Of a stretch of DNA of 64,000 bases, positions 21,449 to 60,915 are shown piece by piece (positions within the stretch are counted from its first letter, which is position 1; each line of letters opens with the position of its first letter). Source of the DNA: Antedon mediterranea. Taxonomy: Eukaryota; Echinodermata; Crinoidea; Comatulida; Antedonidae. The notes under the pieces were generated by a model, which made no database searches, was not told where the DNA came from, and was given only the letters and a program-made list of their open reading frames with translations. The stretch covers positions 18,502,001 through 18,566,000 of the forward strand of contig NC_092671.1 in NCBI RefSeq assembly GCF_964355755.1. Direction: 5' to 3'. Both the position numbers and the translations under genes were made by a program.

Positions 21449-21472
21449 TGATTGGTTCGATGCATTCTGGGA
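21449..21472 (+). promoter_or_regulatory. conserved promoter block of gene A (inverted CCAAT box)
   Basis: TGATTGG, 9 variable bases, then TTCTGGGA. The same two words at the same spacing occur at 54,979-55,002 ahead of gene B. ATTGG is an inverted CCAAT box. The block lies about 110-135 bp before the end of the predicted 5' non-coding exon. Function is inferred from conservation and position. Confidence 0.55.
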
Positions 21473-21499
21473 AATATCATCTTAAGGACGTTTAAGATC

Positions 21500-21583
21500 A
21501 CTGTACAATGACATCGTGATACAAGTTAGTGCCATGCATACGTTTCAGGTGTACAACTTTATGTATAACATTCAGCGAAAACG
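21500..21583 (+). other. predicted 5' non-coding exon of gene A with a short upstream ORF
   Basis: The exon ends GCGAAAACG before a GTAAGTAG donor, parallel to GAGAAACG/GTAAGC in gene B (55,121). An ATG at 21,561 opens an eight-codon upstream ORF that would cross the splice and end at TAA just ahead of the main ATG. The transcription start is not defined. Confidence 0.45.
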
Positions 21584-21676
21584 GTAAGTAGAAATATCAA
21601 TAGGATAAAAACGTTTGCACAAAACAAAACGGAAATTAATTTCATTCTCTAATATCACTTATTTTTTTAGATAAAT

Positions 21677-21755
21677 ATGCACTTCTTCAAATTTCTAACC
21701 GTCATGTATACATGTATTGTTGTTGAAGGCGACATGCATTGTGATCAGCCTACAG
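21677..21755 (+). CDS. gene A exon: signal peptide
   Basis: The ATG follows a TTTTTTAG acceptor at 21,669-21,670. It encodes MHFFKFLTVMYTCIVVEG and a short mature start with a Cys, and ends in phase 1 at CTACAG/GTATAT. The gene B counterpart (57,843-57,906) starts MHYLNLLTIICVVG, so the two signal exons are paralogous. Confidence 0.6.
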
Positions 21756-24700
21756 GTATATTTTTGTTTTTACACTACATAAGCAAACCTAGATTGTTCC
21801 CAAATCCTTTTAGTTGGCTAGTTGGCATATAATAATCAAGAATATTTTTATTCGAGACACGAAAATATTTATCAATCTAGTTAGTGCATACTGAACGCAT
21901 GAATTTCTATTGTCTTTTAATTTTGACCACACTTGGTAAATGGGATGCGCCTGATAAATCATTGTAGATACCCTTGATATGCCGAATGAATTATTTTTGT
22001 GTTTGTGAAGCTCGGGAATAAATTGTTGTATTACTATAGTCATTATCATCATTAGCTATTAATTTTGTCAAAGTCGTCGTCCAGATCAGTGAAATCAATT
22101 TCTATTTTGTTTCGATTTTAAATAGTATACACATAATTGTTTATGAGTGGTGAGCTCGTAGTTTTCAGACAAAAATCGAAACGACAACTGCTTGTAATAA
22201 TGCATGAGTGGTAGAGTGACCCTTTCTAAAACCGAATTGGGACTTACTAAGAATATTATGTTTATCAATAAATGTAATGGCCATAAACAATTCTTTCAAA
22301 TACTTTAGACAAAAATGGTAAAATGGAAATTGGTCGATAGTTTGCGTTTATCGCCATTATTATTATTATTTTGCTTAACTTTAATTTATTTGGAAAAATT
22401 CCTGTCACAAGCGATGTATTAATGATATGTGCTAATGGTCGAGCTAGTATATCACAAATACATCATATCCACTTGAATTATTGGAATTGAGATCATTTAA
22501 TAATAATAATAAATATTTAATTACGTCAAAATCAGACACTGGTATGAACAAGGTTATATAGATGGCTGCAGTCGAGTGCTAACGTTAGTGTTTACCGACA
22601 TACTGACCAACCGACTGACATAGTGAACTGTAGAGTCGCGTTGCACGCGACTAAAAACATTGAATTAGATACCCTATTTCCCATGTATTTAATGGTACCA
22701 GAGAAGCGTGTCCCTAACTTGCCATTTCGGCCGTTTTTTCCAATATTGACTAATTAATATGTATTAAAAGCAATGGCCTTTCCACGAAACTACTAAATGA
22801 TTGTGATTTTTATTTCATTTGTTAGGAAATAGGCTATTTTTCTTATATTAATAGATTCCCAAGGTTTTCGTTTTTCAAAGTCCTCTTTATAATATTCGAT
22901 TTTTGTACTTGGTATACTTCATTTTATTTATTTATATGAAGTTTTTCTTTATTATTTAATTACCTTTCTATTCCTAATGTCATCCAAGGGGATCGTATTC
23001 TATCAGTTCGTATACGTCCCCGTTTTAATAGAAAACATTTGTCAATAGAAGAGAAGAAGTAATAATTTGCTCGAATTGAAAAACTAATTTGCATTATCGC
23101 TTGAGGGGACTTCTTTCAACAGCTGATTGTCAAGCTCAGATTTAAAATTATGTTTTTGCTCTTCAGAATAAGTACATTTCAAAATAAAGTTATGTCATAT
23201 GTCAGGATTTTTTTCTAATGACAAATTAAAACTCCACTCCCAAAGACTTAATAATAATATAGGGCCTAATAATAATATAATATATAATATAATAACATGA
23301 TTTTTATAACGCATATGCCACTCAAGGTGCTCAAGGCGCATTTAAAAAATAAAAAACAAATCATACAAATTTCTGACAAATAAAATGCAATTTCTTTGGA
23401 GACTTGTAATAAGACTTTGTAGAGAATCTTGTTTATGTTTTTCTTGTGAACGGGATTGCCATCTTTAAGAAGGATAGTGAATGAATTCGCTTATGGTTAT
23501 ACTTGGCATTTTTCCTAAATAGATATTTAAAAAAAAACAGAACCATTAGATATCACTTACGATAGGTATAGCTAATTCCAAATGACACGTAATGAGTAAT
23601 TAAACAATCAAATTACACGAATACATTCATGTCATTCGTTTAATGGTGGAGAATATTCCATTCGTTGAATCCAACTCATATTAATACTTTAATATATACA
23701 TTAATTGTTTGTATACTAAAACATTTAGTTACCATTAATAATTTGATTATCATTATTATTATTTTATACACAGATGTGGTACCGGTATATAGTATTAATG
23801 AGATCGGAGACGATTACTGTATTATTTTACCGCATTACGATGCAGATGACGAATATTTACAACTGGAATTTGACTACAATCATGCAATGGGAACATTCGA
23901 ATTAATTCCATCAACTGAAGCCTTCAAAAAATTTTGTATTAAAAATAATAACAATCAGATTTTAGGTAAAATTGGTATGAACATTTCGAAAGAAGGATTA
24001 CAAATTTGGCGTGACCACCAACATTCATCATTTTTCTATCTCAAAATGAATCCTATTCAAGAAATGAGGCAATTTTTGACTAATTCAAAAACGTTGTCTA
24101 TTTGCAAAAAAGGTAAGAACAATGGCGTTATGCAATGACCCTTTCAGCATAATAATTGTACAGATAATACGAAATTGAGTTCTAACATTGGTGATAAATA
24201 CTGTTTGGACATTTGGATGGTCAGATAATACCACGTTGCTATGTTACTATTTAAATTGCTTTTGTACTGTTTTTTACATTTTCTATACTACATAGTAGGC
24301 CTACTCGTAATTATCTAATTTTATTTAGGCCTAATGTATATTTTATTTTTATTAAAAGATAGGTCTGCTGGTTATACATTTGGTCACGATCGTCTTACTG
24401 TTGAACAACTTAGTTTCAGAGGTAGGATTGTACTTATTTTGTTAATGTTTCGGTACTACTCTATATAGGAATTTTAAGTGATCAAACAGCAAGTTGTTTG
24501 TCATTGACATAAAGAAACAAAAAAACTGTCCTAAGACCTATTCGCTAAGTTGAAACATGATATTTAGGCTTATGTTAAGAGCCATGAACCTATAATCCAG
24601 ATTTTAGTTATAGGGGAAATAGGACATGTTTTGCTGTTGAAATATAAGATGGGCGTTACATTTACATTATTTAGCCACCATCGCCGTACGTCCATGCGTC

Positions 24701-27700
24701 AACCACGTTTATTAATCTATACATAAATTTACGTAAGGGCAAAATTCGATAAATCGCAGTTTATTTCTAGAATTTTTACTCGATGGTATATAAAGTTGGT
24801 TCGTACTTTCGGTACTGATTTTAACCATCTGATGTAACCATGTTTACTAATTAAATTGAGTTAGATAATTAGTTATTGACAATTAAAACGAATTTAGGTT
24901 CAACGATTTGCCCCAAATAGGGGTGTTTCGTGGTCGTGGTATACACTGTCTAATGGATGTCCAACTTGAAAAATACCCGCAGACAATAATGCGAGGATGC
25001 TTCGCATTTTCATATCTCCTCCTACGATAATTGTTTTTAATAGCTGAAAACCGGTTGAACAGCTCGAGTACAGCATCATAATGTTGAAGACAGGGCGATT
25101 TTCTTTAAAAAAATACTATTTTGATAGATTTAATATACGTTTATACAAATGTTTTGATCTGCGATAAATGGAACATTCCAATCTCTGTTCCACAAGTGTC
25201 TATTCCCTCAGGCGTCGTAAAGACAAGTACTGTACAGTCATAACAAAAATTCGATACATTTTTTTCCAATCTGTGGAATCCTTTTTTTAACGCATAATGA
25301 GCTAGCCTTTCCAGTCGCCGTCTATTATGTACAATCAACTTTATTATTGCAGCTAAACCACCACCAACACCACCACCCTCCCCTCACTGGCATGAGTAGC
25401 GTTCGTTGTAAAGTCAGTAGAGGACAGGCCTACAGTACGAATGATCAGTACATGCCCTAAACGCAGAACGACTTTGGTGGTTAGGAAACAACTTAATTTT
25501 CAATACAAGTTGGGTAGTGGGTATCATAATTGGCTCTATGAAACAATTGACCATTAGGCCTACTAATTAAGTTGAGTTAGATAATTATTTATTGACGATT
25601 AAAGCGAATTTACGATTTGCCCCGAATAGAGGTGTTTAATATATTACTGACAGTTCCTTCTGAACGTTTGTAATCATGTAACTTCAAAAAAATATAAACG
25701 TCGTATTAGTGATGTATCGTTACATGTACTGTACTATTTCAATCGACTATGACGGTGACAGTTTCAACAAAGTATTACATCGCAATGTTTTACTGTGTTT
25801 ACTGGTATATTATTTGTAAAACATGAAAACCATTAATATTTCGTTACTAAATCGATAAAGAATATATTTAAAAATTGTTCGTCTTTGCATCCATCCTCTT
25901 CCCCATCCCTCAACCCAAATGTTACATACAAAACACAAATTCAGTTTGTTTCTTATTTTGTGACAAACTTCTTTTTCGGAAGTAATTCCCGGGGTGCTAA
26001 TTTTAGTTGAGTACATAAATCACCGTGTCTATTTATTCGTTCCTGTAAACAACATGTATTATTGTCCTGCATGTGCATTTGAAGTCGCCAGTTTTTTAAA
26101 CGCTGAAATGACTATGTATTCGAGAACCATCTGTGGCACGACCTAGATGGTACGCGAGCGAAGTGAGCGTACCATCTAGTTCATATAATTAGTTCAAAAC
26201 TAAACATATTTTTTTTTTCTCTTTTGTGGCGCAAACACCACTTTTATTCACATTCATATTATCTCATATTACATAAAATCGTATTATTTAACTTGTAAAT
26301 GTCGTTACAGTTCATAAGTAACATTTTTACATATACGAATTCTGTATTACTCCTTTTTTCATTAATTTTCTTATATTTTGTTATACACTTGACAGGATCA
26401 TCATTATCATCTATCCCGTTTTAAAATAGTTCACACATTTTCATTTGTTTGTTTTCATTTTACAACCCGGATTATACAATATATTTATATACATGATAAA
26501 AAAAAACAATAATAGCTCAGTACCACCAGTAACCCGTATCACTGTAATTCTTTTTCGGTTAATCGTATCAAATTAGAAATTATATTATCATAATCTTATT
26601 TCTTAAAGCTACCCATTTTTCTATACTTGTTTCTTTATTGTTATATGTTTCACATTCAATGTTATATAACATATTGCTTTTAAATGAATTCCATAAAGAT
26701 TTACCCACTGGCTTATTTAGTGCAGATAACATTTTTATTCTATAAATAGTAAATGCTGCAAAAGTGTAAATATAATCTATTAGCTTATCTCCCGTTCCTA
26801 GTATTAATTGTTTAAATGATATATTATTGTGATTTAAACTTACAAAGATACTAAGCATTTTCCTCCAATATTTCTGAATAAATCTACAACTAAAAAACAA
26901 ATGATTTTCATTTTCAATTTCTCCACATTTGTCACACGTTTGTGTTTCCTTAACTTTCCACTGATACAGCCGTTTGTTGGTAGGCAGTATTCTATTATAT
27001 ATTTATATTTTATATATATATATATTTTATATGTAACATCTTATAATTGAATTGTGCTAGTTTCTTATCTTTCATTTTACATACTTTCCGTAACCAAGAA
27101 GTTTTCCAATCAATGTTGTTATCATTGAAGTACTCTTCCCATTTTAGTTGTGACATTGGAATAATGAAATATTCTTTCACAAACCATGAGTATATTAGTT
27201 TGGTAGTATTAATCTCATACTTGGTCCCAACTAATTCATCATTATCATCACAATTGAAAATATCTACCTCCTTAATAATACGTTTCCATTGAATTGGTAT
27301 TGCCTTAATAATGCACAAATACTCATTTAACCAGTTTGTTTTACATTGTAGTTTCACCAGTATTTCGTTTGATGTTAAAAAAGTGTTCTTATTAACAATG
27401 TCTTTAATACTGATAATGCCACTGTCAATCCAATGCTTGTAGAAAAGCGATTTTTTTTTAGTTTAACGTAGTGGTTTCCCCACAGTTGCTCATTCATTAT
27501 ATCGTTATAAGTTTCAGGTTTTTTTTTAGAGATTCTGTTATAATTTATGTAGGCTTTTATCATATTTTTGTAAAACAGTGGAATTTTATCAGAATTAACA
27601 TCAATAATGTTATAACATGACATATTAAGTAAAACATTAACATCACATATTTTTTTAATATAATACATTGGAATATGTTTCCATTTAGCACCATCATCAT

Positions 27701-30700
27701 TCATAATTCTTTTTAACCAGCCACACATGAGTGCGTTAACATGAAGAGTAAAATCAGGCATTTTAATGCCTCCCATCTCAACATCACCAATTAGAGTTTT
27801 TCTTTTTATCTTTTCCCTTTTATTGTTCCAAATAAAATTATATATTAGATTTGTAACTTGTGTATATACATATTTTGGAACATCAGTGATATTTGCAGCA
27901 TATGTTAATTTAGATAGTGCAAGACTTTTCAGGATTATTATTCTACCAAAAATTGAGAGATTTCTAGCATTCCATTGTTTTAAAGTCTTTTCTAGCTCTA
28001 TTAATTTAACATCCCAGTTTTTTCTGGTACATTCTTCTGTATTATACCCTACATATATGCCTAAAATTTTGATCGGGTGTTTTACCCAATTTAATTCTAA
28101 AGGTCTATCTATTCTGTTCTTCCATTTACCAATCCAAAAAGCATTGGTTTTTTTTTTATTTAGTGTCATTCCAGATACTTCACAAAAACGTTCAATTACA
28201 CTGACTGCTGACTTAATACTTTTGTCATTACCAACATACAAAACCGTATCATCGGCTAATTGGCTTATTCTAGCTTCTATGTTATTTTCATTATTTGGAA
28301 GTTTAATACCCTTATAGTCATCTTTGTTTCTTATTCTAGATGCCATTACTTCAACCACTAAAATGAATAACAGAGCAGATAGAGGACAACCTTGTCTAAT
28401 ACCTCTTTCCATTTTAAAATTGTTTGAAACCCAACCATTGTTAACTGTGACACATTCAACGTTATTGTATAATACTTTTACCCAGTTACAAAAGAACATT
28501 CCAAAGTTAAACTTTTCTAGAATATTGAACATAAAATCTCTACTAATAGAGTCAAAAGCCTTCTTAAAATCTACGGTAATTATTGCCCCTTCGATATCAT
28601 TACACTCTGTATAATAAAGCAGGTCTTCTATTAACCGAATGTTTTCACCAGCGAAACGGCCTTTTATATAACCTTTTTGGTCTGAACTTACTATTGATTT
28701 AATAACCATTTTAAGTCTGTTACTTAATACATGTGCAAGAATTTTGTAATCGGTGTTTAAGAGGGTAATGGGACGCCAATTATTCAAATTTTCTCTTTCT
28801 CCATCCTTGAACAAAAGGGTGATTACACCTCGTTTTTGCGAAAAGGATAATTCTTGAGAATTATAACTTTCATTTAACGCATCGCAAATTAAATGTTTAA
28901 TATTATTCCAAAAGAACACATAAAATTCAACACTTAGACCATCCGATCCAGGTGTTTTATTTTTTTCCATCATTGAAATGGCCTTTTTACATTCATCAAT
29001 AGTGACGTAACCTTCACAATTTTCTTTTTCTATTTCTGAAAGCTTGTTTATAATAGAATTACAAAGGTATTTATTAATTTTTCCAGGGTTTATAACATTT
29101 TTTGCGTATAAACCTTCGAAATGTTGTATTTGTTCCTTTAAAATATCAATTGGGCTCGTTGCTAAGCTCCCATCTTTAGTAATTAAACTTTTTATGTGTT
29201 TCTTTTTACTTTTGGATCTTTCTAACCCAAGAAAGTATTTTGTATTCCGCTCGCCTTCCTCTATCCATTTTACTCTGGACCTAATTTGCGCGCCTTTTGC
29301 TTCTACATTATAAATGTTTTCAAGCTCTATTTTTTTGTTTTCAATTTTATTTTCAATGGTTATATCACAATTTTGAGTATTCATAATTGTTTCATTTAAG
29401 TTTTTTATTTGTTTTTGTAATTTTTCTTTCTTTTTATTCTGGTTACTAAACATATTTGGGTAGTAGTATATTATATTAATAACGTCCGTTCTCATTTTTA
29501 CAGCAGTCTAATTTATAATAGGTTGGTTAAAGAAAGGTAGAAAAAAGGGTATTTCGCTTCTTCTTGGTATGTTTATAACGAATTAAAATGTTAGATTATT
29601 ATTAGTTCTACTATTGTATAAACAGATTTATATCTGTAATAAGCCTAATTATATATTTATTTTGTACACCTAAAAAAATTCATTGAATGCGTGAAGACAA
29701 TAATAATGTATTTCTGCTTAGATTGTATTGTTAATACTACGACCAACAGCACGTTTACAGAATTACCCGAAGAGATACCTACATTTGTAACAGTTGATAT
29801 ACCATCAAACATACCATTTGAGCTACGCTTGTCCGGGAACGAAACCACAGGGAATGACATTTTTATTACATACACGTCAACATATGTAAGTATTGGTTTA
29901 GCCGACATCGATGAGGAAATAATGTACGAAAGCTATGAATTATTGTCTTGGAGAAAAGTAACAATAAAAATTTCTAATACGGAAATATGGATCGGCGGAC
30001 GACATAACAACTTATACTTGAATTTTAAACTAAGAAGTCATCGCTACATGAGAAAGCTCTGGTGGTCTGCAGATTTAAACAATGATCAATGTAAAATAGG
30101 TAAGAACAATTTGATGACTTGCTGTTGTATCGTTTGGATGGTGACACATTTTGCAAAGAAATTACTAATGTAGGCCTATTGGCAAGGCCAGCTCAGTGTC
30201 CTATTGTTAGATTGCCTTGATGTAACCAGGGAGTTGACAACTCCCTGATGTAACTATCAACTATTATTATCATTTTAATACTGCCTTAATTCTCGAACCA
30301 GAATGTAGTATATTACCATTGATAATTACAGGAACAAATGTTGTAATTAGTACAGGGTATGTTTATATCACTACGTAATATGCAATCTTATTTTGTTTGA
30401 TAATTATGACTACCTACACTCGCATTGCTTTACATTTTTGCTTAATATAATTAAATGTGTTGTTAGATTCAATGATGAATATAAATAGTCACTGAAAAAT
30501 ACCGAATTAATTTTTTAACAACTTTTTTAACATACGCGCTATCTAATTATGTTTAGATTGGCCTACATCGCATTGTTTAGATTAATTTGTATGGTGGAAA
30601 AGAAATTACTAATCTTATTACAATAACAATTTTAATATTTCTCCTATATAAAAGGTCACGTGGAGCAAGCATCTTCGGGTAGTCACGAAAAAATTCGCCC

Positions 30701-32533
30701 AGAAAACAGCACATATAATTATACTACAATGTACGATGTTAACAATGAAACAGAATTTGCAACACATTGCAAATGTAATTATACTGATTGTGGCACGGTT
30801 ACCTGCAATTCGGATGTCAACTGCAAGGTCATTTGTAACTGTATACCGGCAACAGAGCTGAAGTTCAAATGCAACTGCAGTTCCGGAAATTGTTTGTCAG
30901 TTTACGAACACTACGTAAATGGTGGCAGTGACAACAATAAAACAAGTACTGAATTTGTTGAACAAGGAAGCCTTACGGTATCGACATTGGAATACGATAA
31001 TACGGTATACGGAACAGGTAATGGTGAATTGGAGTATAATTCGACTACTGGGATACCATTGAATGCAACCTTTGGAAACAGTACGTTGGGACATAGTAAG
31101 ACATTGACAACTGAATCGTATAACGGAATAGGAAGCAGTGAGTTGAGTAATGAAATAGAAATTACTAAAACGGACATTACTGAAACGGGACGTAGTGGAA
31201 CGAAACATAGTGCAACTACTGGATCTGCAAATGATGGAAATGAGAATAGCCCTATCGAATCAGAAGCTAAAGAGGAAACACATGTATCAACAAATGATTA
31301 TATTGAGCTTAATTTCACACACACTGAAACCGACCGAATGTCAACCCAATCAGAGAAAGCAAGTACGTTTGTACACATGCTACAGATAGTATAAGTTTAC
31401 ATTATCTCTCTATTAAGCGGGAATTAAATCTAGTCAACTGGAATTACTTGGTTGTATAGATAGTAGCTTTTATACAATAAGTCCATTTGACTAGATTTTT
31501 AGTCGCGTGCAACGCGACTCTACAGCTCAATATGTCGGTTGGTTGGTCGGTAAACACTAACTTGAGAACGCGACTAAAGCCATGTAATGGCCTTGTTTTT
31601 AAAACATAAGACTACCTGGATGAATGACAATATCCATACTTGATTCGCAGTTAGCCAATTGAGAGAATTAGACTAATGTACATTAAAGATGTATTGTCCC
31701 TTGAAACACAACAAAAGGTCAAAATATTCTAAATTTAAATTGGCCATATCAAAGTAATATTAAAGTTATTCACTTTAAGTCGAAAATTCGAGCCAAAAAC
31801 AACGTAATTAACAGGTAAATTATTGATTACATTTCGTCTGAAAAAAAAACGCGAGCGAAAGTAAACAATGATTTCAAACCACGAGTATGTTTTCACACAG
31901 ATCGCGAGGAAGTTTTATGATTATGCATACAGAGTAGCCAAAAAAGCGCTTTGCTTTATGAGATATGTTTTGATCGAAAACTTTGACTGGCAGTCAAAAA
32001 CATCTGTATTTCACTAATTTTTGGTGAAAGTTAATAGCTATTATGATACTTTAAAATGACCCACTTTTTTCGAAATATTAATTTTTTTTGGAAGTAGTCA
32101 AAGGGACAATACATATTTAAGACTGAGAGAAAATGTTAATTGGCACATATTCCTTTTCCTAAAACATAATAATTATCGTTTAAAGGTTTACATGACGAAA
32201 TCAGTATGTTGATATCAAGTTTACTCTACACCACGTACGTACATTATTATGTGGTGTACTGCAAACCTTATATCAACATAATATTTATTATAATAATTAT
32301 CGACATATTTCTAAACATGTGTCTCTTTTCTTACAGGTAGTGATTTGAACATTCCACCGATGGTTATTTTACTAATTGCATTAATCGTTACTACAATGTT
32401 GGTTTTAGTAGTCGGTTGCTGTTGTATCATAGCGGGTTTTTTCAAACCACCCCAAAACAAGATAGCACAGGCGCCACCACCACCACCACCGATGCAGCCA
32501 CAACCACCAGACCGGTCAAACATACAGAAATAG
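21677..32533 (+). CDS. gene A: mucin-like type I membrane protein, unrecognised family (multi-exon)
   Basis: Proposed coding exons are 21,677-21,755, 23,774-24,112, perhaps 24,359-24,421, then 29,722-30,099, 30,655-31,362 and 32,337-32,533. All junctions are phase 1 and each internal exon is a multiple of three. The product is 566 residues, or 587 with the optional exon. Order: signal peptide; two beta-rich domains; ten-Cys module; Thr/Ser/Asn-rich stalk with many N-x-S/T sites; one membrane helix; CCC motif; proline-rich cytosolic tail. Gene B is a downstream paralogue with one beta domain. The largest intron (24,422-29,721) holds a Helitron and a truncated LINE. Alternatively, the first two exons belong to a separate truncated gene, but no other signal exon exists before 29,722. 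The domain layout suggests a cell-surface receptor or adhesion molecule. That is inference. Confidence 0.6.
22150..22420 (-). mobile_element. LINE reverse transcriptase fragment
   Basis: The minus-strand translation contains NYRPISILPFLSKVFERIVY, the conserved RT pre-motif A block of CR1/L2/Jockey-like LINEs, with KIFPNKLKLSK ahead of it. It is short and interrupted. Confidence 0.65.
22570..22652 (+). mobile_element. GACC-cored miniature inverted-repeat element, copy 1
   Basis: It starts AGTCGAGTGC and ends GCACGCGACT, near-perfect inverted ends of 10 bp. The core carries GTTAGTGTTTACCGAC and ACCAACCGACTGAC. Related copies lie at 31,501, 34,581, 35,111, 35,291, 38,964 and 39,590. Confidence 0.65.
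23230..23345 (+). repeat. AATAAT-rich run followed by a GCGC-type repeat word
   Basis: AATAATAT repeats lead into GATTTTTATAACGCATATGC then CACTCAAGGTGCTCAAGG. Near-identical text recurs at 53,155-53,225. It is a dispersed short repeat of unknown class. Confidence 0.55.
23774..24112 (+). CDS. gene A exon: first beta-rich domain
   Basis: This 339-base, phase 1-1 exon follows a TACACAG acceptor and ends at AAAAAG/GTAAGAACAAT. It encodes 113 residues with alternating hydrophobic strands (YCIILPHY, LQLEFDY, GTFELIPS, GKIGMNI, LQIWRDH, FFYLKM) and a late Cys-Lys-Lys-Gly. It aligns loosely with the exons at 29,722-30,099 and 58,281-58,667. Exon edges and the donor sequence GGTAAGAACAAT are shared with the 29,722 exon, supporting exon duplication. 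No known domain was recognised with confidence. Confidence 0.6.
24359..24421 (+). CDS. gene A optional 21-residue linker exon
   Basis: A 63-base phase 1-1 open segment lies between an ATTAAAAG acceptor and an AGAG/GTAGGA donor. It encodes DRSAGYTFGHDRLTVEQLSFR. The frame fits the gene, but the splice sites are weak and no counterpart was found in gene B. Confidence 0.3.
24716..26179 (+). mobile_element. non-autonomous Helitron, copy H2 (1,464 bp), in a gene A intron
   Basis: It begins TCTATACATAAATTTACG after a host A and ends with the 37-nt hairpin 26,143-26,179 closing in CTAG before a host T. It matches H1 and H3, in the opposite orientation to both. No ORF. Confidence 0.8.
26211..29505 (-). 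mobile_element. 5'-truncated Tx1/L1-type LINE in a gene A intron
   Basis: It is related to the LINE at 3,230-9,919 and inserted on the minus strand. It ends (26,211-26,241) in poly(T), a hairpin and CTTTTATTC, read backwards. The endonuclease is absent, so the copy is 5'-truncated at about 29,505. Confidence 0.85.
26580..29495 (-). pseudogene. LINE ORF2 remnant: reverse transcriptase and zinc-binding tail
   Basis: The main frame, 29,495-27,375, is 706 codons without interruption. It carries SRVKWIEEGERNTKYFLGL, NNWRPITLLN, TVDFKKAFDSISRDF (motif A), GIRQGCPLSALLF (motif B) and QLADDTVLYVG (motif C), so the polymerase core is intact. A frameshift near 27,375 moves homology to 27,357-27,010, and a TA-rich expansion at about 26,998-27,034 interrupts the next block. 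The zinc-binding CDKCGEIENENHLFFSC lies near 26,890-26,945, and 26,900-26,580 encodes the end. Unlike the 4,800-8,476 copy, its RT core has no stop, so it may be the younger insertion. Confidence 0.85.
29722..30099 (+). CDS. gene A exon: second beta-rich domain
   Basis: This 378-base, phase 1-1 exon follows TTCTGCTTAG and ends at AAAATAG/GTAAGAACAAT. It encodes 126 residues: PFELRLSGNETTGNDIFITY, YVSIGLAD, WRKVTIKISNTEIWIGG and a closing DQCKIG. It is clearly similar to gene B exon 58,281-58,667 (PFTLQLL, DIIITYT, VKIQISSTEIRI, SDCHIG). The strand pattern recalls beta-sandwich domains such as the Methyltransf_FA group, but I could not establish homology. Potential N-glycosylation sites: NTT, NST, NET. 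Confidence 0.65.
30226..30246. other. short perfect hairpin in an intron
   Basis: GGGAGTT-GAC-AACTCCC lies within a gene A intron, flanked by two copies of TGATGTAAC. It is probably a trace of an excised or tiny element. Confidence 0.4.
30655..31362 (+). CDS. gene A exon: ten-cysteine module and mucin-like stalk
   Basis: This 708-base, phase 1-1 exon begins GHVEQASSGSHEK. Ten Cys follow at about 30,768-30,893: HCKCNYTDCG, then CNSDVNC, CKVICNC, and CNCSSGNCLSVYEHY. All ten align with gene B (59,775-59,925). The rest is rich in Thr, Ser, Asn, Gly and Glu with many N-x-S/T sites, as in a heavily glycosylated stalk. It ends TDRMSTQS, matched by TDRMSTES in gene B, before a GTACGT donor also shared with gene B. 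The Cys spacing does not match EGF or any module I know. Confidence 0.7.
31501..31575 (-). mobile_element. GACC-cored miniature element, copy 2
   Basis: AGTCGCGTGC at the left and ACGCGACT at the right enclose GGTTGGTTGGTCGG (the reversed GACC core) and AAACACTAACTTGAG. It lies in the last gene A intron. Confidence 0.65.
31683..32120. mobile_element. TTAA-flanked MITE, piggyBac-like
   Basis: TTAA at 31,683-31,686 and at 32,117-32,120 flank inverted ends: AGATGTATTGTCCCTT on the left and, reversed, ATATGTATTGTCCCTT on the right. The TTAA duplication is the piggyBac hallmark. At 438 bp it has no transposase. Related ends occur at 33,504, 63,536-63,560 and 63,968. Confidence 0.65.
32337..32533 (+). 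CDS. gene A last exon: membrane helix and proline-rich tail
   Basis: After a TTCTTACAG acceptor the exon encodes PMVILLIALIVTTMLVLVVG, a single membrane span, then CCCIIAGFFKP and a short tail with APPPPPPMQPQPP, ending at TAG 32,531-32,533. Gene B ends in the same way. Three adjacent Cys at the inner membrane face are candidates for acylation, and the poly-proline run could bind SH3, WW or EVH1 domains. Both roles are inference. Confidence 0.75.
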
Positions 32534-32895
32534 AATTTCAGTAAACTGAAAAAATATTGATTACAAAAGAAACTTCACGTTTGCAGGACGATGTTACGCA
32601 TTATTATTATTATAAAATTTTAATCAAATAGAACTAAGCACCAAAATAATGTACGTTTTTGTTCATAACGTTTGTTGCGGAATAACATGCAATGTTACAT
32701 AACATTTAAAAATAACATACAATTTAATTAATAGCTAAGAAAATGTTTTTATAATTACAAAATACAAAAAAATAAAAATTGTTTTACATTTATTCATTAA
32801 ATATATCTTACACTATAAGCAATAAGTAACACGTTGTGTATTGGTAAAAAGTTTTCATAGCGTAAAGGAAATAAAGTGAAGTTGTGAATTCGACG

Positions 32896-32922
32896 TTTCG
32901 GTTGGTTTTGCTACAACCGAAA
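32896..32922. other. hairpin TTTCGGTTG / CAACCGAAA
   Basis: A perfect 9-bp stem with a 9-nt loop lies 18 bases before the long palindrome that follows. It falls in the probable 3' region of gene A. Confidence 0.7.
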
Positions 32923-32939
32923 TACATAATTATAAATTA

Positions 32940-32992
32940 AATACGATTATTTACAGTCATAATTAATAATTATGACTGTAAATAATCGTATT
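32940..32992. repeat. perfect 26-bp-arm palindrome with a one-base centre
   Basis: The left arm (32,940-32,965) starts AATACGATTATTTACAGTC. The right arm (32,967-32,992) is its exact reverse complement, separated by a single A. It would form a strong hairpin in RNA or a cruciform in DNA. Confidence 0.9.
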
Positions 32993-40834: not shown

Positions 40835-42777
40835 GAAATAAAGAATACTTCGCAAATATTGCTTCCGATTTAATGAAGAAATTTCCTTCTCCCAGTAACC
40901 TTTTTAGTGTGGGTTCGAATGCCTTTAAAAATTACTATAATAGCAAAATCAAACATGTTTCTGGTTTTTCTCTCGAAGAAATTGACGAGAGCCTTATCGA
41001 AGAGGATCATCTAAAAGTGTAGGCCTTGATCAGATTCCTGCAAAATTTCTTAGAGACGGAGCTCCTAATATTAAAATACCAATAACACATATAATTAACC
41101 TCTCCATTAAATACGAACGTATTCCCTCGGATTTTAAACTCGCAAAAGTCACGCCCCTTCATAAAAAGAATTCCAGAACTGAGGCTAACAATTACAGACC
41201 TATAAGCATTCTCTCCTCAGTTTCGAAAATTCTGGAGAAGGTGGTATATATACAAGTTTCCGATTACCTTGAAAGGAATCAACTTATCTACGATCATCAA
41301 TCCGGTTTTCGTAGATCATTTTCTACCGACACATGTCTTATCCATCTTAGAGATCACCTTAGAGTTCAAATGTCAAATGGTTTATTTACGGGTATGGTTT
41401 TACTCGATGTCCAAAAGGCCTTTGACTCGGTCAATCATGATATTTTGTGTAAAAAACTTAAGTATCTAGGATGCCGGTCTATCGGTTGGTTTCAAGCGTA
41501 CCTGTCTGGGCGAAATCAGATTGTCGATATTAAAGGTACCAAATCGGACTCTATTGAGATTGGATGTGGAGTCCCCCAGGGTAGCCTTTTGGGTCCTCTC
41601 TTGTTTCTTATTTACGTGAATGACCTACCATCAAGTATCGAAAGTGATTGTAAAGTTGTTTTGTACGCTGACGATTGTGCAATTTTTTACTCCCATAAAG
41701 ATCCAATCGCAATCCAATCTAAACTCCAAAACAATCTCGTATCATGCAATAATTGGCTGATCGACAATCAACTTTCGCTTCATATGGGTAAGACCGAATG
41801 CATCCTGTTTGGTTCTAAACGTAGATTAAGCAAAGTAAACGAATTCTATATTGATTGCTTTGGAACGACTATAAATGGATCAAAATCTATCAAATATCTA
41901 GGTATTGAGATTGACCAAAATATATCAGGTGACGTCATTGCCCGCTTTGTTATAAACAAAGCAAACGGCAGACTGAAATTTCTGTACCGACAATCATCAT
42001 TTCTTAATTCACATTGTCGCAAAATTCTTAGTTTTGCTTTAATCCAACCGATGTTCGATTATTCGGTTTGCTCATGGTCTTCTACGGTAAATAAAAATTT
42101 AAAATCAAAATTACAAACGACTCAAAACAAAATGGTTCGTTTTATAAACAAGTTAGGTCCCCGATCTCATGTTGGTCAATCTCAGCTAAACGACGTTGGT
42201 ATGTTAAAAGTCCAAGACCGTGTCGAATTTCTTAGAGTCTGTCATGTTTTTAAAATATATAATCATTGTTGTCCACCTTATTTATGCAATCGTTTTATTA
42301 GAATTTCAGACAGTCATAATTACAATACTAGGGGATGCAATTTAAATTTTAGAATCCCAACTATCAAGCCAATGGCACATGTGACCTTTTTTTACAATGC
42401 TATTAAAGAATGGAATAATTTACCAATTAACATTAAGGAATCACAAACTGTTTGTTGTTTTAAAAGTAAAGTTAAAAAGTATCTACAGGATCGGAACGTT
42501 CACTAGCTCTAGAAACTATTTAATTAGCGCTTCTTCTTTTTTCGATTGTCCTTTTTGCTGTTTTTTGTAATTTTTATATGTTGCTTTGTTTGTTTTTTTT
42601 GCTGTTCTTTCAAAGGACCTCATTGGAAACAAGTCCGTAGAGGACTTTTATGAGTTATCCTTGGCATCCTTGTTTTATTTTGGTATTTTTATATTTGCCA
42701 ATTTTAATTGTATGTCTGTGATATTTTATGTACTGATGCCGAAATAAATCAAATCAAATCAAATCAAATCAAATCAA
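40835..42777 (+). mobile_element. CR1/L2/Jockey-like LINE nested in the RTE-like LINE
   Basis: 5'-truncated insertion. 40,835-41,240 encodes the pre-RT segment with a frameshift near 41,015 (VGLDQIPAKFLRDG then NNYRPISILSSVSKILEKVV). A 421-codon frame follows, then a 3' region ending in five AAATC units (42,752-42,776). The same family also ends at 17,163 on the minus strand. Confidence 0.9.
41241..42506 (+). CDS. LINE reverse transcriptase, C-terminal 421 residues intact
   Basis: The uninterrupted frame has QSGFRRSFSTDTCLIHL, LLDVQKAFDSVNHDIL (motif A), GVPQGSLLGPLLFLIYVNDL (motif B), VVLYADDCAIF (motif C, near 41,660), LIDNQLSLHMGKTECILFGS (motif D region), KYLGIEID, and the C-terminal domain with NYNTRGCNLNFRIP and EWNNLPINIKESQT. 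The polymerase catalytic residues are all present. Upstream sequence of the same protein is shifted by one frame at about 41,015, and the endonuclease is absent, so the copy is dead despite the intact RT half. It makes no sense as a host gene. Confidence 0.9.
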   Translation: MVYIQVSDYLERNQLIYDHQSGFRRSFSTDTCLIHLRDHLRVQMSNGLFTGMVLLDVQKAFDSVNHDILCKKLKYLGCRSIGWFQAYLSGRNQIVDIKGTKSDSIEIGCGVPQGSLLGPLLFLIYVNDLPSSIESDCKVVLYADDCAIFYSHKDPIAIQSKLQNNLVSCNNWLIDNQLSLHMGKTECILFGSKRRLSKVNEFYIDCFGTTINGSKSIKYLGIEIDQNISGDVIARFVINKANGRLKFLYRQSSFLNSHCRKILSFALIQPMFDYSVCSWSSTVNKNLKSKLQTTQNKMVRFINKLGPRSHVGQSQLNDVGMLKVQDRVEFLRVCHVFKIYNHCCPPYLCNRFIRISDSHNYNTRGCNLNFRIPTIKPMAHVTFFYNAIKEWNNLPINIKESQTVCCFKSKVKKYLQDRNVH

Positions 42778-44023: not shown

Positions 44024-45292
44024 ATGGACAATTTGACACGGTTAAGCAACAACCCCAGGCGGTATGCAGAGTCATTTGATGTATATTGGAAGTTATGTAG
44101 AAACGTTGGAGCGTTTGAACATTGGATTAATTCATATTTCCCTGAGAAAATTATGAAAGAAATAAATTTAGAAAGAGGAAATAAGCTAATGGCACTCGGA
44201 ATTGGTAGCGGGCCAGGTAAGAAGGGGTTGGAGAATCGATCTGTAACTAGGCCTATAACTATATGAGGTTTTGAAAATACCCATTGTTCCTCTCTACAAA
44301 CAACATACAAATGAATGTTGCTTTTATTTAGCCTACTTTTGACTGTGATTCCTTTAATGTTTGGTTTTGTATACCAGTATTCAATTTAGGCACACCATTG
44401 AATATGGGGCTTATCGTATCGTTTCCCCCATTTTACCCTCCAGGCCAAACTGAAATCAAATTTTTGAAGCAACTGCTTAGAGAGTGGCCAGAGATCACAG
44501 ATACGGTGGTGGAACCAGATCTTTCATATATTAATAAATATAAAGATCTAGCTGTAAAGAAAACTGAACTCATCGATGGAGTTTCCTTCGAATGGCGACA
44601 ACAGACTCTACAGCAGTTCAGACAGGAAAACCAAAATCAACCAGTGAAGAAGTACCATTTTATAATGGCGATCCACGCGCTTTATTTCTTTGAAGATTTA
44701 CCAGATGTTTTAAAATATCTGATAAGTATTCTTGAAGATGGTGGTATGATACTAGCAATGATCTCATGTGGTAGGCTATTATATCTTTTTAATACCTGTT
44801 TATGCTAAGAATATCTTTCTTAAAAAGTTTTACTGAACTCGGACTTGGAAAAAACGAAATGTCTAATTTGTACAAGACGTAATAATTACTCTAAATTTCT
44901 TAATACTAGAACCTTCATTTCTTTTTACAAATACATTTTTTATAGATGACAGTTGTACATCACAGTGTTACGAACAAATGCCTCAGTTTAAGAAGAATGC
45001 ATATGCTATATCTACAAGAGATGTGGAGAAAGCGTTGGAGAAACTCCAAATACAGTATGTGAAGCATCGCATACAAGTAAACATGGATGCTACCAGCTGT
45101 TTCGATGGCGAATCGAAAGAAGGGGAACTTCTCTTGGATTTTCTTACAAGATCTGCTTTCTTTAAGAAAAATGCATCTGAATCGTTGTATAGTGATATGA
45201 TTAAGCATTTAAGAAGTATAGTTTTGCCTGAAAGTAAGGATGGCAAAAGTTTGCTAAGATGTGATTGTGATGCGATTGTTATCACAAAGTAG
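44024..45292 (+). CDS. histamine N-methyltransferase-like SAM-dependent methyltransferase (3 exons)
   Basis: Exons 44,024-44,216, 44,444-44,770 and 44,946-45,292 join in phase 1 at GT-AG sites to give 288 residues, close to vertebrate HNMT (about 292). The protein would transfer a methyl group from SAM to a small amine in the cytosol. N-terminal RRYAESFDVYW matches the family's YxESF motif. MALGIGSGPG, completed across the first intron, is SAM-binding motif I. VVEPDLSYINKYKDL is the acidic loop after strand 2. YHFIMAIHALYFFEDLPDVL matches the family's IHMIQMLYYV segment, and EGELLLDFLT matches its C-terminal GDLLWDFLT. The start is the first ATG giving family alignment. An ATG 27 bases upstream is possible. 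HNMT-like genes are multicopy in several marine deuterostomes, so the true substrate is open. Confidence 0.85.
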
Positions 45293-51382: not shown

Positions 51383-51419
<37 letters not shown>

Positions 51420-52537: not shown

Positions 52538-52945
52538 TTTATGCCAGATTTGCACAGTACTATAGTCACGTGTCCCATCATGTTATATTGGTATACCTCT
52601 ATATTTTAGTTTGTTGGAGGTTAAAAATAATAAAACTTATAATTTCCTATGGTATCATTGTTGGATCGAACATAATAAAAACAAAATACTACCTCTGTAT
52701 GGTGTTAATTCGTTCTGTGACAAAAATAAATAAAACTCCATATAATAGAAACTAGTTATTTTCATGAAAATCGACATTGGTTTACTTTCTTGTTTGATTG
52801 TTTATTGACTTTTGAACCTGCTTTCGGGTAAGCGAAACATCAAACCAATAAAATAATGTATAGTCTTTTACTTATGTATTTAACATAAACGCACTCGTAC
52901 TGTATATCATAAACCAACATCAATCAATATTACACGTTCACTCTC
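52538..52945 (+). repeat. right copy of the direct duplication flanking Helitron H3
   Basis: It matches 48,205-48,553 in order, with small indels and one extra segment of about 60 bases near 52,575-52,650. It begins 18 bases after the Helitron end. Confidence 0.8.
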
Positions 52946-54978: not shown

Positions 54979-55002
54979 TGATTGGCTGCATGGTTTCTGG
55001 GA
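54979..55002 (+). promoter_or_regulatory. conserved promoter block of gene B (inverted CCAAT box)
   Basis: TGATTGG, nine variable bases and TTCTGGGA are identical in words and spacing to 21,449-21,472. It lies about 120-140 bp ahead of the exon end at 55,121. Confidence 0.55.
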
Positions 55003-55029
55003 GATTAATTGTAAAATATTGTATCGTGT

Positions 55030-55121
55030 GTAAATGCTAAAAAGCATTTTATTAAAGAATAAGTTGTAGTTGATTAAACGTCAGACTACAATGAGAGGGT
55101 GAACGCAAAAGACGAGAAACG
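55030..55121 (+). other. predicted 5' non-coding exon of gene B
   Basis: It ends GACGAGAAACG before GTAAGCAAC, parallel to gene A. ATGAGAGGGTGA at 55,091 is a three-codon upstream ORF. The start of transcription is not known. Confidence 0.45.
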
Positions 55122-56169
55122 GTAAGCAACATTTTTATTTTCTATAGCATTGAAAAACATCAAATTATTTATTTCCAAAGTTAATGGTTTAATGGTTTTA
55201 AATTTATATAGCGCAAAATACAAATAGTCTCTATGCGCTGATTGAATAATATAACAAAAATTTAAAATGAAGCAAATGTGGAAAACTTCAAAAGAGCAAA
55301 GCTCGTTATTTGGTTTAATCAATTGACAATCTGTAGATCATAATCAATCTGTAAATTTTGTTTTAAAGTTTAAAAAGAAAAACTTAAATAGTAGCAGGTG
55401 TGTAGTTTGTTAAGTTGATAAATTGATATACCACGATCCGCTCTTTTTTCTATTTTGTATTATGAACGTGTGTTAACCCATTATAAAAGTTTTTTTAAGA
55501 ACAATTCCGAATTCTATTAGTAATACCTTTTTAAAATAAGTTTTATTTATATGACTTACAATAAAGTTTTAAAGTAACAAACTGAAAACCTGCATAGACA
55601 TACCTAACAGATTCCTTTTAGCGACGTCTTATTACGAGTAGCCCGATAAAGGTGTATATTTTTTATAATGAAAGCAGTTTTAATAATAACAAAGATAATT
55701 CAAATTGTTGCAACAATTTGAATTATTCTTAAAATTATGTCTACCGTATGACATTGATGCTGTTTTTGCTTATGATTTTTAAACAAGTTTATTTAGGGAT
55801 CTTATGAGACAATTTTTTTTACTTCTAATTTGATTCATAAAAAGAAGTAGTAGTAATGTATTATTTACTTCATTGTTTACATTTACGAATATAACATTTT
55901 CTATTTCTGTTTTGAAGAATTTCTTTTTGAATAAATGTGTTGGTAAAAGTTAATAATGAATGTAATATGTATACTGCGAATGCGAAACATCCTATCTCTG
56001 ATGATACTTACCGTGCCTAAAATGATTTTGGAATTTTGCGTCGTTCTCGTATAGCCGGAGAGCAGGAAATACTATCCGAAAGAAAATACGTATATGTCAT
56101 GTACCTAGGTATAAAAACAATATTTTACATTGTAAAAGATGAAAATCTTGCTTCTGGTAGAAAAAAATA

Positions 56170-57790
56170 AAGAAAATCTTTGTATTCTTTGCCTGAATCA
56201 AATTTCGCCTGTGGAATGCAAATTCCATCCGAAATAATGGCCGATCACGTCCTGCTTTACGATGTTGACATACTACTGGTTACTGAGTTATTATAGGAGA
56301 GTTTACACCACCAGGCTATGAGTTTATTAACATTCCCAGGTGAAATGATAACTACGGAGGGGGAATCGGTATACTTCATAAAAAATCACTAAAAGTGTCC
56401 CTATCTTCATCTTCTACTTACGCGAGTTTTTTAACATTGTGTTATCAGCGTACAGAATAAAGTTAAACTAGTTGGTATTTACCGTCCTCCACCATCTCGA
56501 GCAAACGGTGTCAAGACCAGTACTTTTCTTGCAGAAGTAGAACAATTTTTCTGTTTTACTCTTCAACAAATCGCGATTTTGGTGATTTCAACCTACATGT
56601 CGACATGAAAAGTGAGGAAAGTGAAATGCTGCCAAAGTTATACACTGACTCGCACAATACATAAATCAACCGACGCATAAAATGGGACACACCCTGGACT
56701 TATACGAGTACGAGTTATATCTCGTCCAGAAGATAATCTCATTCAATGTGTACAGGTGGATCCTTTAGAATACTCCGATCATTACGTTGTTGTGTGTACT
56801 ATTAAATGTGACAAACCACCTCCTCTTAAAGTAATAACAGCAAAATGTGAATATGCAAAACTTGACCACGAACGTTTAAAATTATCGCTAATCCACAACT
56901 TAAGTGATTTTCCGGAGAGTAATAATGTAAATATTCTCGTAGATTCCTTTGTATATACCTCCTCTGCACTCGAAGAGCTCTGCCCTGTAATTACACAGTA
57001 GAGTACTGTAAGACGGACACTACCATGGTATAACAATAACATTTATAAAGCTAGACGTTTTCGTCGTCGTCTTGAACTTCGCTGGAAAGAATCTCAAACG
57101 GAAGAAGACCGGCTGGCATTTTGAACCATAAAGACCATGTAATTGAACTAATTACTTGCGCAAAAATGGAATACTTCACCAATAAATGTAGCAACGCAAA
57201 AATGAAAGATAATGTATGGTACTATAAATAGTCTCTTAAATAAAACAGGAAAAATCATTCCAAAAAGTACCATTTCTAACACACAGTTTGCTGATCAATT
57301 TTTGTCATTTTTTATACACAAAACTGAAAAAAAATAGAAATAATGTAATTAATCATAGATCGAATGATGACATAATTCCCCAAGCTGATGATCGCCTAAC
57401 CATGTCTGAGTTTAACTACTTACATGTTTTCAAATAAATCGTGTTCACTCGACTCTATACTGACATGGCTGCTCAAGGAAAACATGTATACGTTATTACC
57501 CATAACTACTAATATTGTTATAATGTATCCCTTTGAAACAGGAACCGCTTTCATTTAATTACAGGTGCCGACTTCGCTCCTCTAATGATCCCATCCGATT
57601 TTTCGTTCAATGCTTTTTACTGTCACCGCTCCGCCGCGGATCTGGAACGTGCTAAGTGTCGACTTGAGAGGAACGAATTTGGCACCTCTATTTAAAACTT
57701 TTCTTTTTAATTAATTACTAAGTATTTTTAGGCGCTCTGTTGTTTGTAGGGCGCCATATAAAAACTTGTATAGAATAGAATAGAATATAC
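56170..57790 (+). mobile_element. decayed CR1/L2-like LINE in gene B intron 1
   Basis: 56,756-57,001 encodes DPLEYSDHYVVVCTIKC, the SDH end of the AP endonuclease. Downstream frames give TLPWYNNNIYKARRFRRRLE, DRLAF and NSLLNKTGKIIPKSTISN, the usual linker. The polymerase is missing. 57,420-57,790 looks like the 3' end, with a (GAATA)n tail at about 57,770-57,788. Many stops and frameshifts. Confidence 0.7.
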
Positions 57791-57842
57791 TGTGTTAATC
57801 ATCTTGCTTTATATAACATCACTATGTTTATCTTTAGACACA

Positions 57843-60800
57843 ATGCATTATCTTAACCTCTTAACAATCATCTGTGTTGTTGGAAGCACTGCTGGTTCCA
57901 AAGGAGGTATACTATTTTGTATTTAATTCTATTTAATATTTTGCCTGGTATCATACTTGCCCGGCTTAACAAAATCAAAGCAAGCAACAAGCAATACTAT
58001 TAGGTTTATTTGTAAGATAAACTTGTATAGTTTTTCCTCTAAAATTTGTATTAATATTTTTAATTTGTGGTGCTCTCCAAATTTGTTATATTGTTTAAAG
58101 AGGTACCGACTTCTGTGTTGGGCCATTGGCCCATGGTTTACTCTTGACCACATTTTAAATAAATAAATAACAAATGGTTGTTTTTATATTTAACTTTACT
58201 AATATAACTAAGAGTCTTGAGTCTTGAATAATACTTGTTAGGCCTAATACTTATATTGAGCATTTACTTTTTCTGCGTAGAATGTGTTATTGGGTCGACA
58301 AGGGAGCACTGCTATATTGATTTACCCGACATAGAAGATGGGGCTATACACATAAGTGTTGTTGTTACCAAACTGAAACCATTTACACTACAGTTGTTAA
58401 CAAATGTTGTAGAAACAGAAGATGACATTATAATCACATATACGTTAAACAATCTAAGTATAAATTCAGGACCACGAAGGAACCAAACAGTATACGACAC
58501 TGCGGTACAGAATGATAAACACGAAACAGTAAAAATACAAATATCGAGTACGGAAATACGGATCAACCGTGAAGGTGGCTATTTATTTCAACTAAACCCT
58601 CCTCGCATCATAAAACAGCTATTGGTTCAAGATATAAACATTGATATGTTATCTGATTGTCACATAGGTAAAAACTAGTTAATTGTGACTTTTACTTCAC
58701 ATTATGATCACATGGTAATGTGACAAATATTAATTTATGCCAAAGGTATTGTCAGTGCGAATCTCAATATGTTCATGTTGACACAGCAATGTCATATCAG
58801 TGTAAATATCCTTTCCTCCTTGTTCTTTTTCCTATTTTTTCATTTTTCCTAAATTACACTTAATTTTAATCCTTTTTTATATATTTTTGTTCCTTGACAA
58901 TCATCTAATATTTTCTTACTTTATTCCGTTTTCCTATTTTTCTGATTTTTCCTCTTTTTAAATTCAAATCTCTCTTTATTAAGAATTTTAAAATGTTCTT
59001 GTCCATCACAAATAATTATGGAAAATCAGTCAGTGTTTCTAATTTTTATACAAAATATTTGTATTTTATACCGGTACTTTTCTATTGGTTGGTTGTTTGC
59101 TTTTTTTTTATAATGCATCTTCCGAATTTAATCTTCACTCTCTAATTAATATTATTGTCTTCTCTATTTCCGTCAATGGTTCAACACCTCAAACCACTAC
59201 CTCAGAATATTATACAGTTATCTCTCGTTTTCTAGTAGAAAAATTATTTCTCCAGCTATTTCTATTAGTATCTAGAGGCGATATAGTTGTCTTTATCTCT
59301 GAAAGCACAATTGTGTTTCTTCCTTTAATGTCATATTTTGAATGTATACTCTCTAGAAACGGTTTCAGTTTATCTGGAATTCTTTTTCAGATTTAAGAAG
59401 ACGATTATTGTTCTTTTTTTTAGTGTTAATAGGCCTCTACTCTACTCTGGTATTCTTCTCTTTGGATGTATACAAGCTCTATAAATTATTTGTTTAAAAA
59501 ATAAGATGATGGAAAGAATGACAACATGATCAGTATGTTAAACTCTATAGCTAAGTGACTGGCGGAACATACTGTAGTGTATATTGAAATATAATTCTTT
59601 TTACAGCCTCTGCTGTATAAAGGTTTATAATAATGTGGTGGGTTTTTTTTAATTAATAGGTCACGTTGATCAAACAAATTCGGATAGCCATGAAGATACC
59701 AGAACAGAACATAGCACATACAAGTATGAAGTTACTACAATGCGAGATTCTAACAATATAACAGTTTTTGCACCTAATTGTACGTGTAACTACACTGATT
59801 GTGGTTTCTGCTCATCAACATCTAGAGTCATCTGTGTGATATACATTTGTAATTGTACGTCAATAACAGGAGAACAAGTGACGATGTTCAACTGTAGCTG
59901 CGATCCGACAGACTGTTTATCCGTTTACGAATACTATACTGGCCTTAGTTATGGTCATGGCGTTGGTGACAATTCTGGATTTCAAAAAACAACTCAGATG
60001 TCTGGCAGACCTTATGTAACGTCGAAAGGGGATGACGGAAAAGACACGTGGTATGGATCAGAAACCAGACAAATGGGACATAATTGGACTACTGAAACAC
60101 CAGTAAATTCAAGCTCAAACGCTGGCCTTGGAAACAATACTTCTGGAGACAGTGGTTCATGGAGCAACGGAGCGGGGGACAATGAAGCGGGAGCCGATGG
60201 AGTAGAAAACAGTACTTTAAGAAATAGTGGGTCATGGAGTAATGGAGCGGGGGAAGACGGAACGGGAAACAGTGGAACGGGAAACAGTGGAATGGGAAAC
60301 AGTGAAACGGGAAGCAGTGGAACGGGAAACAATGCAACGGGAAACAGTGAATGGAATAATGGAACAGAAACTAGTAGGTCATTGAGTAACGGAACGGCGG
60401 ATAATGAGCCGGAAATTACTGAATCGGAACACAGTGGTTACAGAACTACTAAATCTACTAATGGTGGAAATGGGAATAGGCCTACTGGAATAGAACCATA
60501 CGGTCCAACAAATGGATATTCCACGCAGAATATAACTGACCGAATGTCAACCGAATCAGTACAATGTACGTTACACATAATTGTAACTAAGATTTTTTCT
60601 AATTTCTAATGTAGGTAGTGAAATATTGCTGTTTTGAAGGCAACAATATTCTTTTTATAAATGAAAACTATAATAATTAAAATGATATTAATATTTAAAT
60701 TTAGATCTTTCTGGTTTTTTTTTACAGATAACAGTGATTTGACGGTTGCACCAATGATAATATTATTGATGTCGCTAACCATTATTTCAGTAGTGGTCTT

Positions 60801-60915
60801 AGCAATCGGTTGTTGTTGTGTTATAGCAGGTTTCTTCAAACCCAAAAACAAGGTTGAACAAGCGCCACCGCCACCACCAACTCTAGGTCTGGGGCCACCA
60901 AAAATACTAAAATAG
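57843..60915 (+). CDS. gene B: mucin-like type I membrane protein, paralogue of gene A
   Basis: Coding exons 57,843-57,906, 58,281-58,667, 59,660-60,565 and 60,728-60,915 join in phase 1 to 514 residues. Exon 1: signal peptide MHYLNLLTIICVVGSTAG. Exon 2: beta-rich domain (FTLQLL, DIIITYTLNNLSI, VKIQISSTEIRI, LSDCHIG). Exon 3: ten-Cys module, then a stalk rich in Gly, Asn, Ser and Thr. Exon 4: helix PMIILLMSLTIISVVVLAIG, CCCVIAGFFKP, then APPPPPTLGLGPP. It has one beta domain where gene A has two. It would sit in the plasma membrane with the stalk outside. Function unknown; receptor, adhesion or secreted-coat roles are all possible. Confidence 0.7.
58281..58667 (+). CDS. gene B exon: beta-rich domain
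   Basis: A 387-base phase 1-1 exon between TTCTGCGTAG and CACATAG/GTAAAAAC. It encodes 129 residues. The acceptor TTCTGC(G/T)TAG and the donor context match the gene A exon at 29,722-30,099, and the protein aligns across most of its length. Confidence 0.7.
58668..59659 (+). other. gene B intron 2
   Basis: T-rich. A 103-codon frame at 59,085-59,396 lacks splice context. No element was recognised. Confidence 0.45.
59660..60565 (+). CDS. gene B exon: ten-cysteine module and repeat-rich stalk
   Basis: A 906-base phase 1-1 exon. It begins GHVDQTNSDSHED, close to gene A. The Cys module runs from NCTCNYTDCG to CSCDPTDCLSVYEYY. The stalk has a 78-base duplication carrying SGSWSNGAG (near 60,148 and 60,226) and about six 15-base units coding GNSGT-like pentapeptides (60,264-60,350). 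Length polymorphism there is likely. It ends TDRMSTES before GTACGT. Confidence 0.75.
60264..60350 (+). repeat. coding minisatellite in the gene B stalk
   Basis: A 15-base unit of the form GGGAAACAGTGGAAC is repeated about six times in frame, giving Gly-Asn-Ser-Gly-Thr variants. Confidence 0.85.
60728..60915 (+). CDS. gene B last exon: membrane helix and proline-rich tail
   Basis: It follows a TTTTTTTTACAG acceptor. NSDLTVAPM precedes a 20-residue helix, then CCCVIAGFFKPKNKVEQ, five prolines and a stop at 60,913-60,915. It is strongly similar to 32,337-32,533. Confidence 0.75.

Follow-up and report, generated by a model that had tools for sequence, protein, structure and literature searches.

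A clustered family of predicted type I cell-surface proteins with a probably galectin-like head domain

As judged from their sequences, two genes, referred to here as A and B, encode type I cell-surface proteins and are members of a family whose genes lie in clusters. Both lie within a window of 64,000 nucleotides, i.e. the whole stretch of DNA analysed, which corresponds to bases 18,502,001-18,566,000 of contig C2 in an animal assembly of 354 Mb and 18 contigs. The same plan, consisting of a head, a Cys-rich module, a stalk, a helix with juxtamembrane Cys and a short tail, recurs in further copies on this contig.

Genes A and B and their relatives on one contig

Genes A and B are complete single-pass membrane-protein genes on the plus strand and are built from matching exons, with open frames, AG/GT splice borders and phase 1 at every intron of both models. 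The predicted proteins (566 aa for A, 514 aa for B) are 34% identical (E 5e-58), with identity climbing towards the membrane from 33% in the head to 55% in the Cys module and 58% in the membrane exon. An earlier note on this DNA, made from the letters, had proposed a tandem pair with a common exon plan and introns exclusively in phase 1, and both proposals are borne out. The position it gave for the start of gene A, 21449, was wrong; the ATG is at 21677.

In gene A, exon 1 (21677..21755) runs from this ATG to an open-frame phase 1 GT donor and encodes a signal-peptide-like N terminus whose hydrophobic 10-mer has a mean KD of 2.26. The head domain follows at 29722..30099, from its opening Cys to its closing Cys. 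The ten-Cys module and a Ser/Thr-rich stalk, delimited by A/B exon alignment and Cys count, occupy 30655..31362, and the membrane helix, GCCC motif, proline-rich tail and stop codon lie at 32337..32534, as judged by A/B exon alignment, hydropathy and motif scan. Gene B has the corresponding parts: exon 1 at 57843..57906, with a start codon, an open frame, splice borders and a signal-peptide-like N terminus (mean KD of the hydrophobic 10-mer 2.71); a Cys-to-Cys head domain at 58281..58667; a ten-Cys module with an Asn/Gly/Ser/Thr-rich stalk carrying 15-base and 75-base tandem repeats at 59660..60565; and, by the same three lines of evidence as in A, the helix, GCCC, proline-rich tail and stop at 60728..60916. 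There is one strong membrane helix per protein (best 19-residue means 3.05 in A and 2.83 in B). There are 10 Cys in each Cys module and none in either stalk; Ser and Thr together make up 30% of the A stalk and 28% of the B stalk, with 5 and 9 sequons, respectively.

Gene A has one exon more than gene B, at 23774..24112 on the plus strand. Backed by its splice borders and frame, this phase 1-1 exon closes with C-K-K-G|gt as the heads do, and perhaps it encodes a second, very diverged head domain. It was rejected as a proven second head, since its homology to the other heads is not significant: it ranked 77th of 979 listed entries with the family profile and 7th of 938 with the profile of A/B/C-type heads, the other entries being its own shuffles. 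A candidate 63-nt phase 1-1 exon (24359..24421, plus strand) is open with AG/GT borders and is otherwise unsupported. The intron preceding the main head of A contains a minus-strand LINE frame at 27375-29507 (RVT_1, E 4e-34).

Several other features were seen in the window. A long non-LTR retroelement spans 3399-8476 and includes an endonuclease frame (Exo_endo_phos, E 2e-16), a weak zinc-knuckle frame (E 4e-4, below the cut-off) and downstream frames that look reverse-transcriptase-like by eye. An open reverse-transcriptase frame is found at 40986-42506 (RVT_1, E 4e-38), with short GACC/GACA repeats 1-2 kb away. Between A and B, at 44332-44808, lies a methyltransferase exon (Methyltransf_23, E 2e-7), presumably resembling a histamine N-methyltransferase relative; the flanking frames pointed to no family. 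The palindrome TAGGCCTA occurs 80 times in the window and part of the cluster DNA, against 1.93 occurrences expected from base composition, which is a slight hint of echinoderms or their kin. A COX1 search yielded no match.

Searches of the whole 354-Mb genome, together with one local search, placed at least ten membrane exons and at least nine head exons, all of them on the 40.9-Mb contig C2 and at two sites. The first site (18.260-18.563 Mb, plus strand) carries, in this order, g1 (18.260-18.264 Mb), g2 (18.276-18.280 Mb), g3 (18.420-18.423 Mb), g4 (18.440-18.452 Mb), gene C (18.485-18.495 Mb), A and B. The second (6.327-6.342 Mb, minus strand) carries m1 (6.342-6.337 Mb), m2 (6.333-6.331 Mb) and m3, the last being a membrane exon alone (6327281-6327114) with no recognisable head upstream, which would make it a decayed or headless copy. 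The pair thus belongs to a larger family extending outside the window, beyond whose edges the earlier note had advised looking for copies, and the plan that the note saw in neighbouring loci does recur.

The genome was queried with the products of individual exons (membrane exons: B, g2 and m1; heads: A, B, g2 and m1; Cys module: A), which recovered ten membrane exons and eight heads. A local tblastn search (E 0.045) added the ninth head, in gene C, for which the exon design and the position upstream of the C membrane exon also speak. Matches elsewhere in the genome, at E 0.36 or worse, were left out of the counts. Family profiles, which recover the exons they were built from by construction, gave no extra copy at E < 0.1 in 266 kb that included the window and reached 30 kb past its right edge. 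The copy counts are lower bounds, because the genome search scores the best candidates only and the interval 18.290-18.410 Mb was searched, not read.

The exon design is uniform. All nine head exons start with AG|NN-Cys and finish with Cys-x-x-G|GT, and phase 1 starts are found also in the nine Cys-module exons and ten membrane exons. The motif G-[CF]-[CI]-C follows the helix in 10 of 10 copies: helices outside A and B end in GCIC, or in GFIC in the case of m2. The earlier note listed a ten-Cys module, a CCC motif and a proline-rich tail for A and B, and among the copies found these two alone have ten Cys, GCCC and a tail with poly-proline. Elsewhere the module has six Cys in each of the five g and m2 genes and, counted by eye, six in m1 and about eight in C. 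Tails are short, with at most one tyrosine, and half of them (5/10; g1-g4 and m2) end in [E/D]-T-x-M.

Neither the single exons, nor the nine heads, nor the joined proteins matched any entry at the Pfam cut-off; the best row below it was CBM_1 on the Cys module of g2 (E 0.0087). Sequence searches of the PDB with a ten-head profile (A4) and with the A/B Cys-module profile found nothing within an E limit of 10. The words farnesoic, galectin and transmembrane are not mentioned in a sea cucumber genome preprint (PMC13228809). We consider the family unmatched in Pfam, which does not prove it new to science.

Fold and kinship of the head domain

Two AlphaFold models of the head, one for A and one for B, drew on one and the same set of three sequences from the window and reached middling confidence. 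Both are all-beta (A: pLDDT 66.2, pTM 0.61; B: pLDDT 65.8, pTM 0.64, with three of the five B models below pLDDT 40). For the B model, galectins came first both in VIA-align (Z 11.6, rmsd 3.0, 122 residues aligned) and in Foldseek (E 7.5e-5), and galectins and their kin accounted for 50 of 50 and 48 of 50 listed rows, respectively. For the A model, VIA-align again placed galectins first, with galectins and kin in all 50 listed rows (rmsd 3.5, 101 residues aligned), at a Z of 7.9, where values below 8 may reflect a common arrangement only. Foldseek gave a mixed list for A, in which the top row was not a galectin, the best galectin had E 8.9e-3 and no row fell below 0.001. An Ig fold did not appear among the 50 VIA-align rows listed for either model, a listing that does not exclude Ig. 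These models suggest that the head fold is probably a familiar one, an all-beta galectin-like sandwich. The view of the earlier note that the layout is apparently undescribed stands as far as the Pfam cut-off goes, and probably does not extend to the head, with its predicted galectin-like fold and the possible Pfam link described below.

The resemblance of the B head model to galectins, seen in an alignment of 122 residues between a prediction and known folds, goes together with clear differences. The family head has a Cys at either end and is part of a membrane protein whose start resembles a signal peptide; galectins are not known to carry signal peptides. Galectins bind sugar through the motifs H-x-N-x-R and W-x-x-E-x-R. 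The two galactose-binding motifs were found in none of the nine heads, and therefore a galactose ligand is not implied.

A second possible kinship concerns PF12248 (Methyltransf_FA / FAMeT). At least 44 PF12248 exon matches were listed in the genome, and none of the 44 lies in either family cluster. When 24 of these exons were extracted, 20 were found to start with AG|NN-Cys (any Cys near the match start being accepted in this count) and 19 to end with Cys-x-x-N|GT; of the five end misses, three are last exons with the stop immediately behind the Cys, one is truncated at the edge of the extracted DNA and the fifth has a GC donor. The same design, with phase 1, Cys first and Cys-x-x before the end, is found in 9 of 9 heads. 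Heads and PF12248 exons are thus alike in length and in being single phase 1-1 exons with an NN-Cys start and Cys-x-x near the end; they differ in the IGGW...IRR core, which is common in PF12248 exons and could not be made out in the heads on inspection by eye.

Profile comparisons gave a graded picture. The nine-head profile aligned with the 24 PF12248 exons over 97 columns in local and 127 columns in global mode. In either mode it outscored all 100 shuffled targets, and it also outscored 479 of 480 block-shuffled queries. Of 32 circular shifts, one scored higher in local mode and five in global mode, and the hhalign probability was 17%. We regard a distant relationship of the head to PF12248, unproven as it is, as moderately likely on these sequence comparisons. 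It is also quite plausible, if not what we prefer, that the head, as an orphan beta domain, has no true kinship with either PF12248 or galectins, its likeness to them being that of a common sandwich and a disulfide-bracketed exon design. Such an origin is consistent with the Pfam scans of the nine heads, which gave no PF12248 or galectin row up to E 10 (HMMER filters drop most weak matches), and with the joined A and B proteins, which gave no PF12248 row at E up to 1. It is likewise favoured by the profile of six PF12248 exons, which reached no significance against the heads and did no better on A/B/C-type heads than on shuffles. Against the 24-exon profile, 2 and 3 of 100 controls outscored the g-type heads taken alone, and for A/B/C-type heads alone 12 and 32 of 100 controls were as good. 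Against the orphan origin stand the nine-head score over its shuffled controls and the coinciding exon borders of heads and PF12248 exons.

The PF12248 exons themselves are unevenly placed, as 19 matches fall within 22 kb on the minus strand (C2:23935012-23956686) and are perhaps parts of one giant tandem protein. A frame beside one PF12248 exon resembles, we presume, a SUEL/rhamnose-binding lectin domain. The best E for one such exon against the PDB was 0.3. Arthropod proteins with DUF3421 (PMC10015273) and complement relatives of the CPAMD8 type (PMC9363628) are among the published PF12248 proteins.

Rates of change and exon histories

The head is the fast-changing part between A and B. Its dN/dS is 1.18 (bootstrap 95% 0.75-1.81, not significantly above 1), compared with 0.23 in the Cys module (bootstrap median 0.24, 0.10-0.53, with 43 of 300 resamples failing) and 0.32 in the membrane exon (median 0.34, 0.17-0.62). 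Among g1-g4 and m2, in contrast, every exon in all ten pairs has a dN/dS below 1, with heads at 0.24-0.74. The fast evolution suggested earlier is supported for the A/B heads relative to their other exons and is qualified by the ratios of the g and m2 genes. For the genes compared, A, B and the five g and m2 genes, positive selection is not established: the interval for the A/B head includes 1 and no g/m2 pair indicates it. Stalks change in length by repeats, which in g2 amount to 16 copies of 93 bp and in B are the 15- and 75-base units.

A contrast between exons of one gene pair was observed for g2 and g4. Their membrane exons are 95% identical in amino acids (dS 0.10), whereas their heads are 45% identical (dS 0.63), and third positions differ at 4 of 57 sites in the membrane exon and at 43 of 123 in the head (Fisher 4e-5). 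Of the ten pairs, this one alone passes the corrected third-position contrast of head and membrane exon. Over all sites g1 and g3 show the opposite tendency, with heads more alike (p 0.0035). Identity between g2 and g4 is 82% in the intron preceding the membrane exon, 88% in a stalk piece, 72% in the intron preceding the head and 47% in the intron that follows the head. The simplest reading of these sequences is that the 3' end of g2 and g4 has been homogenised or exchanged.

In tree tests the head topology was rejected by the membrane exons (AU 6.5e-5) and by the Cys exons (AU 7.8e-4), while the tree of the membrane exon remains compatible with the head data (AU p 0.19). As the conflict is one-sided, we do not accept it as topological proof of exon exchange. 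A mosaic exon history appears to hold for at least one paralogue pair.

Proposed role and comparison with known systems

We propose that the family serves in surface recognition or adhesion, immune or of the self/non-self kind, an assignment that we hold to be evenly poised between right and wrong. A mucin-like stalk would lift the head off the membrane, and the head would bind a glycan or a protein outside the cell. The juxtamembrane Cys may be palmitoylated. The tail would dock cytosolic partners, either by poly-proline (A, B) or by the C-terminal [E/D]-T-x-M (g1-g4, m2), and docking rather than tyrosine signalling would be its mode of action. The heads evolve faster than the anchors.

The Ser/Thr-rich stalks, their repeat-driven changes in length, the short tails with few tyrosines and the seemingly weak constraint on the A/B heads would also suit a structural coat, in which membrane-anchored mucin-like glycoproteins form a glycocalyx or body surface and the head is a compact spacer. 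We consider such a coat unlikely: nine genes retain the head as an open exon closed by Cys, and the dN/dS range of the g/m2 heads indicates more constraint than a spacer needs. Proteins of gamete recognition, or of a sperm or egg coat, would equally be expected to have paralogues in clusters, with ectodomains that change fast and anchors that stay stable; since nothing here indicates expression in the gonad, we give this origin a slim chance. That the copies are decaying and unexpressed is hardly credible, for the headless m3 exon, the LINE frame in the A intron and the near-unity A/B head ratio are set against nine head-bearing genes with open frames and intact splice borders, a dN/dS well under 1 for both the Cys module and the membrane exon of A/B, and values below 1 in all g/m2 pairs.

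A more specific form of the recognition proposal would see in the family an undescribed invertebrate allorecognition or immune receptor complex, in which a galectin-fold head derived from a PF12248 module was diversified by fast-changing heads and by exchange of phase 1 exons. The variable recognition module would then be a secreted galectin-fold domain rather than an Ig, SRCR or LRR one. As a joint claim, this has a small chance of being right in all its parts. If recognition is indeed the role, a galectin-type head would be one more fold employed by clustered surface receptors that exchange exons, and the interval 18.26-18.56 Mb of contig C2 would be directly testable for polymorphism.

A system similar in outline is Hydractinia Alr, which likewise comprises clustered single-pass membrane genes of low identity and shared architecture (PMC11067881). 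The present family, known here from one assembly, differs in its nearly tyrosine-free tails. It would differ also in the head itself, which in Alr belongs to the Ig superfamily according to the same source, and which is galectin-like by prediction in the family described here.
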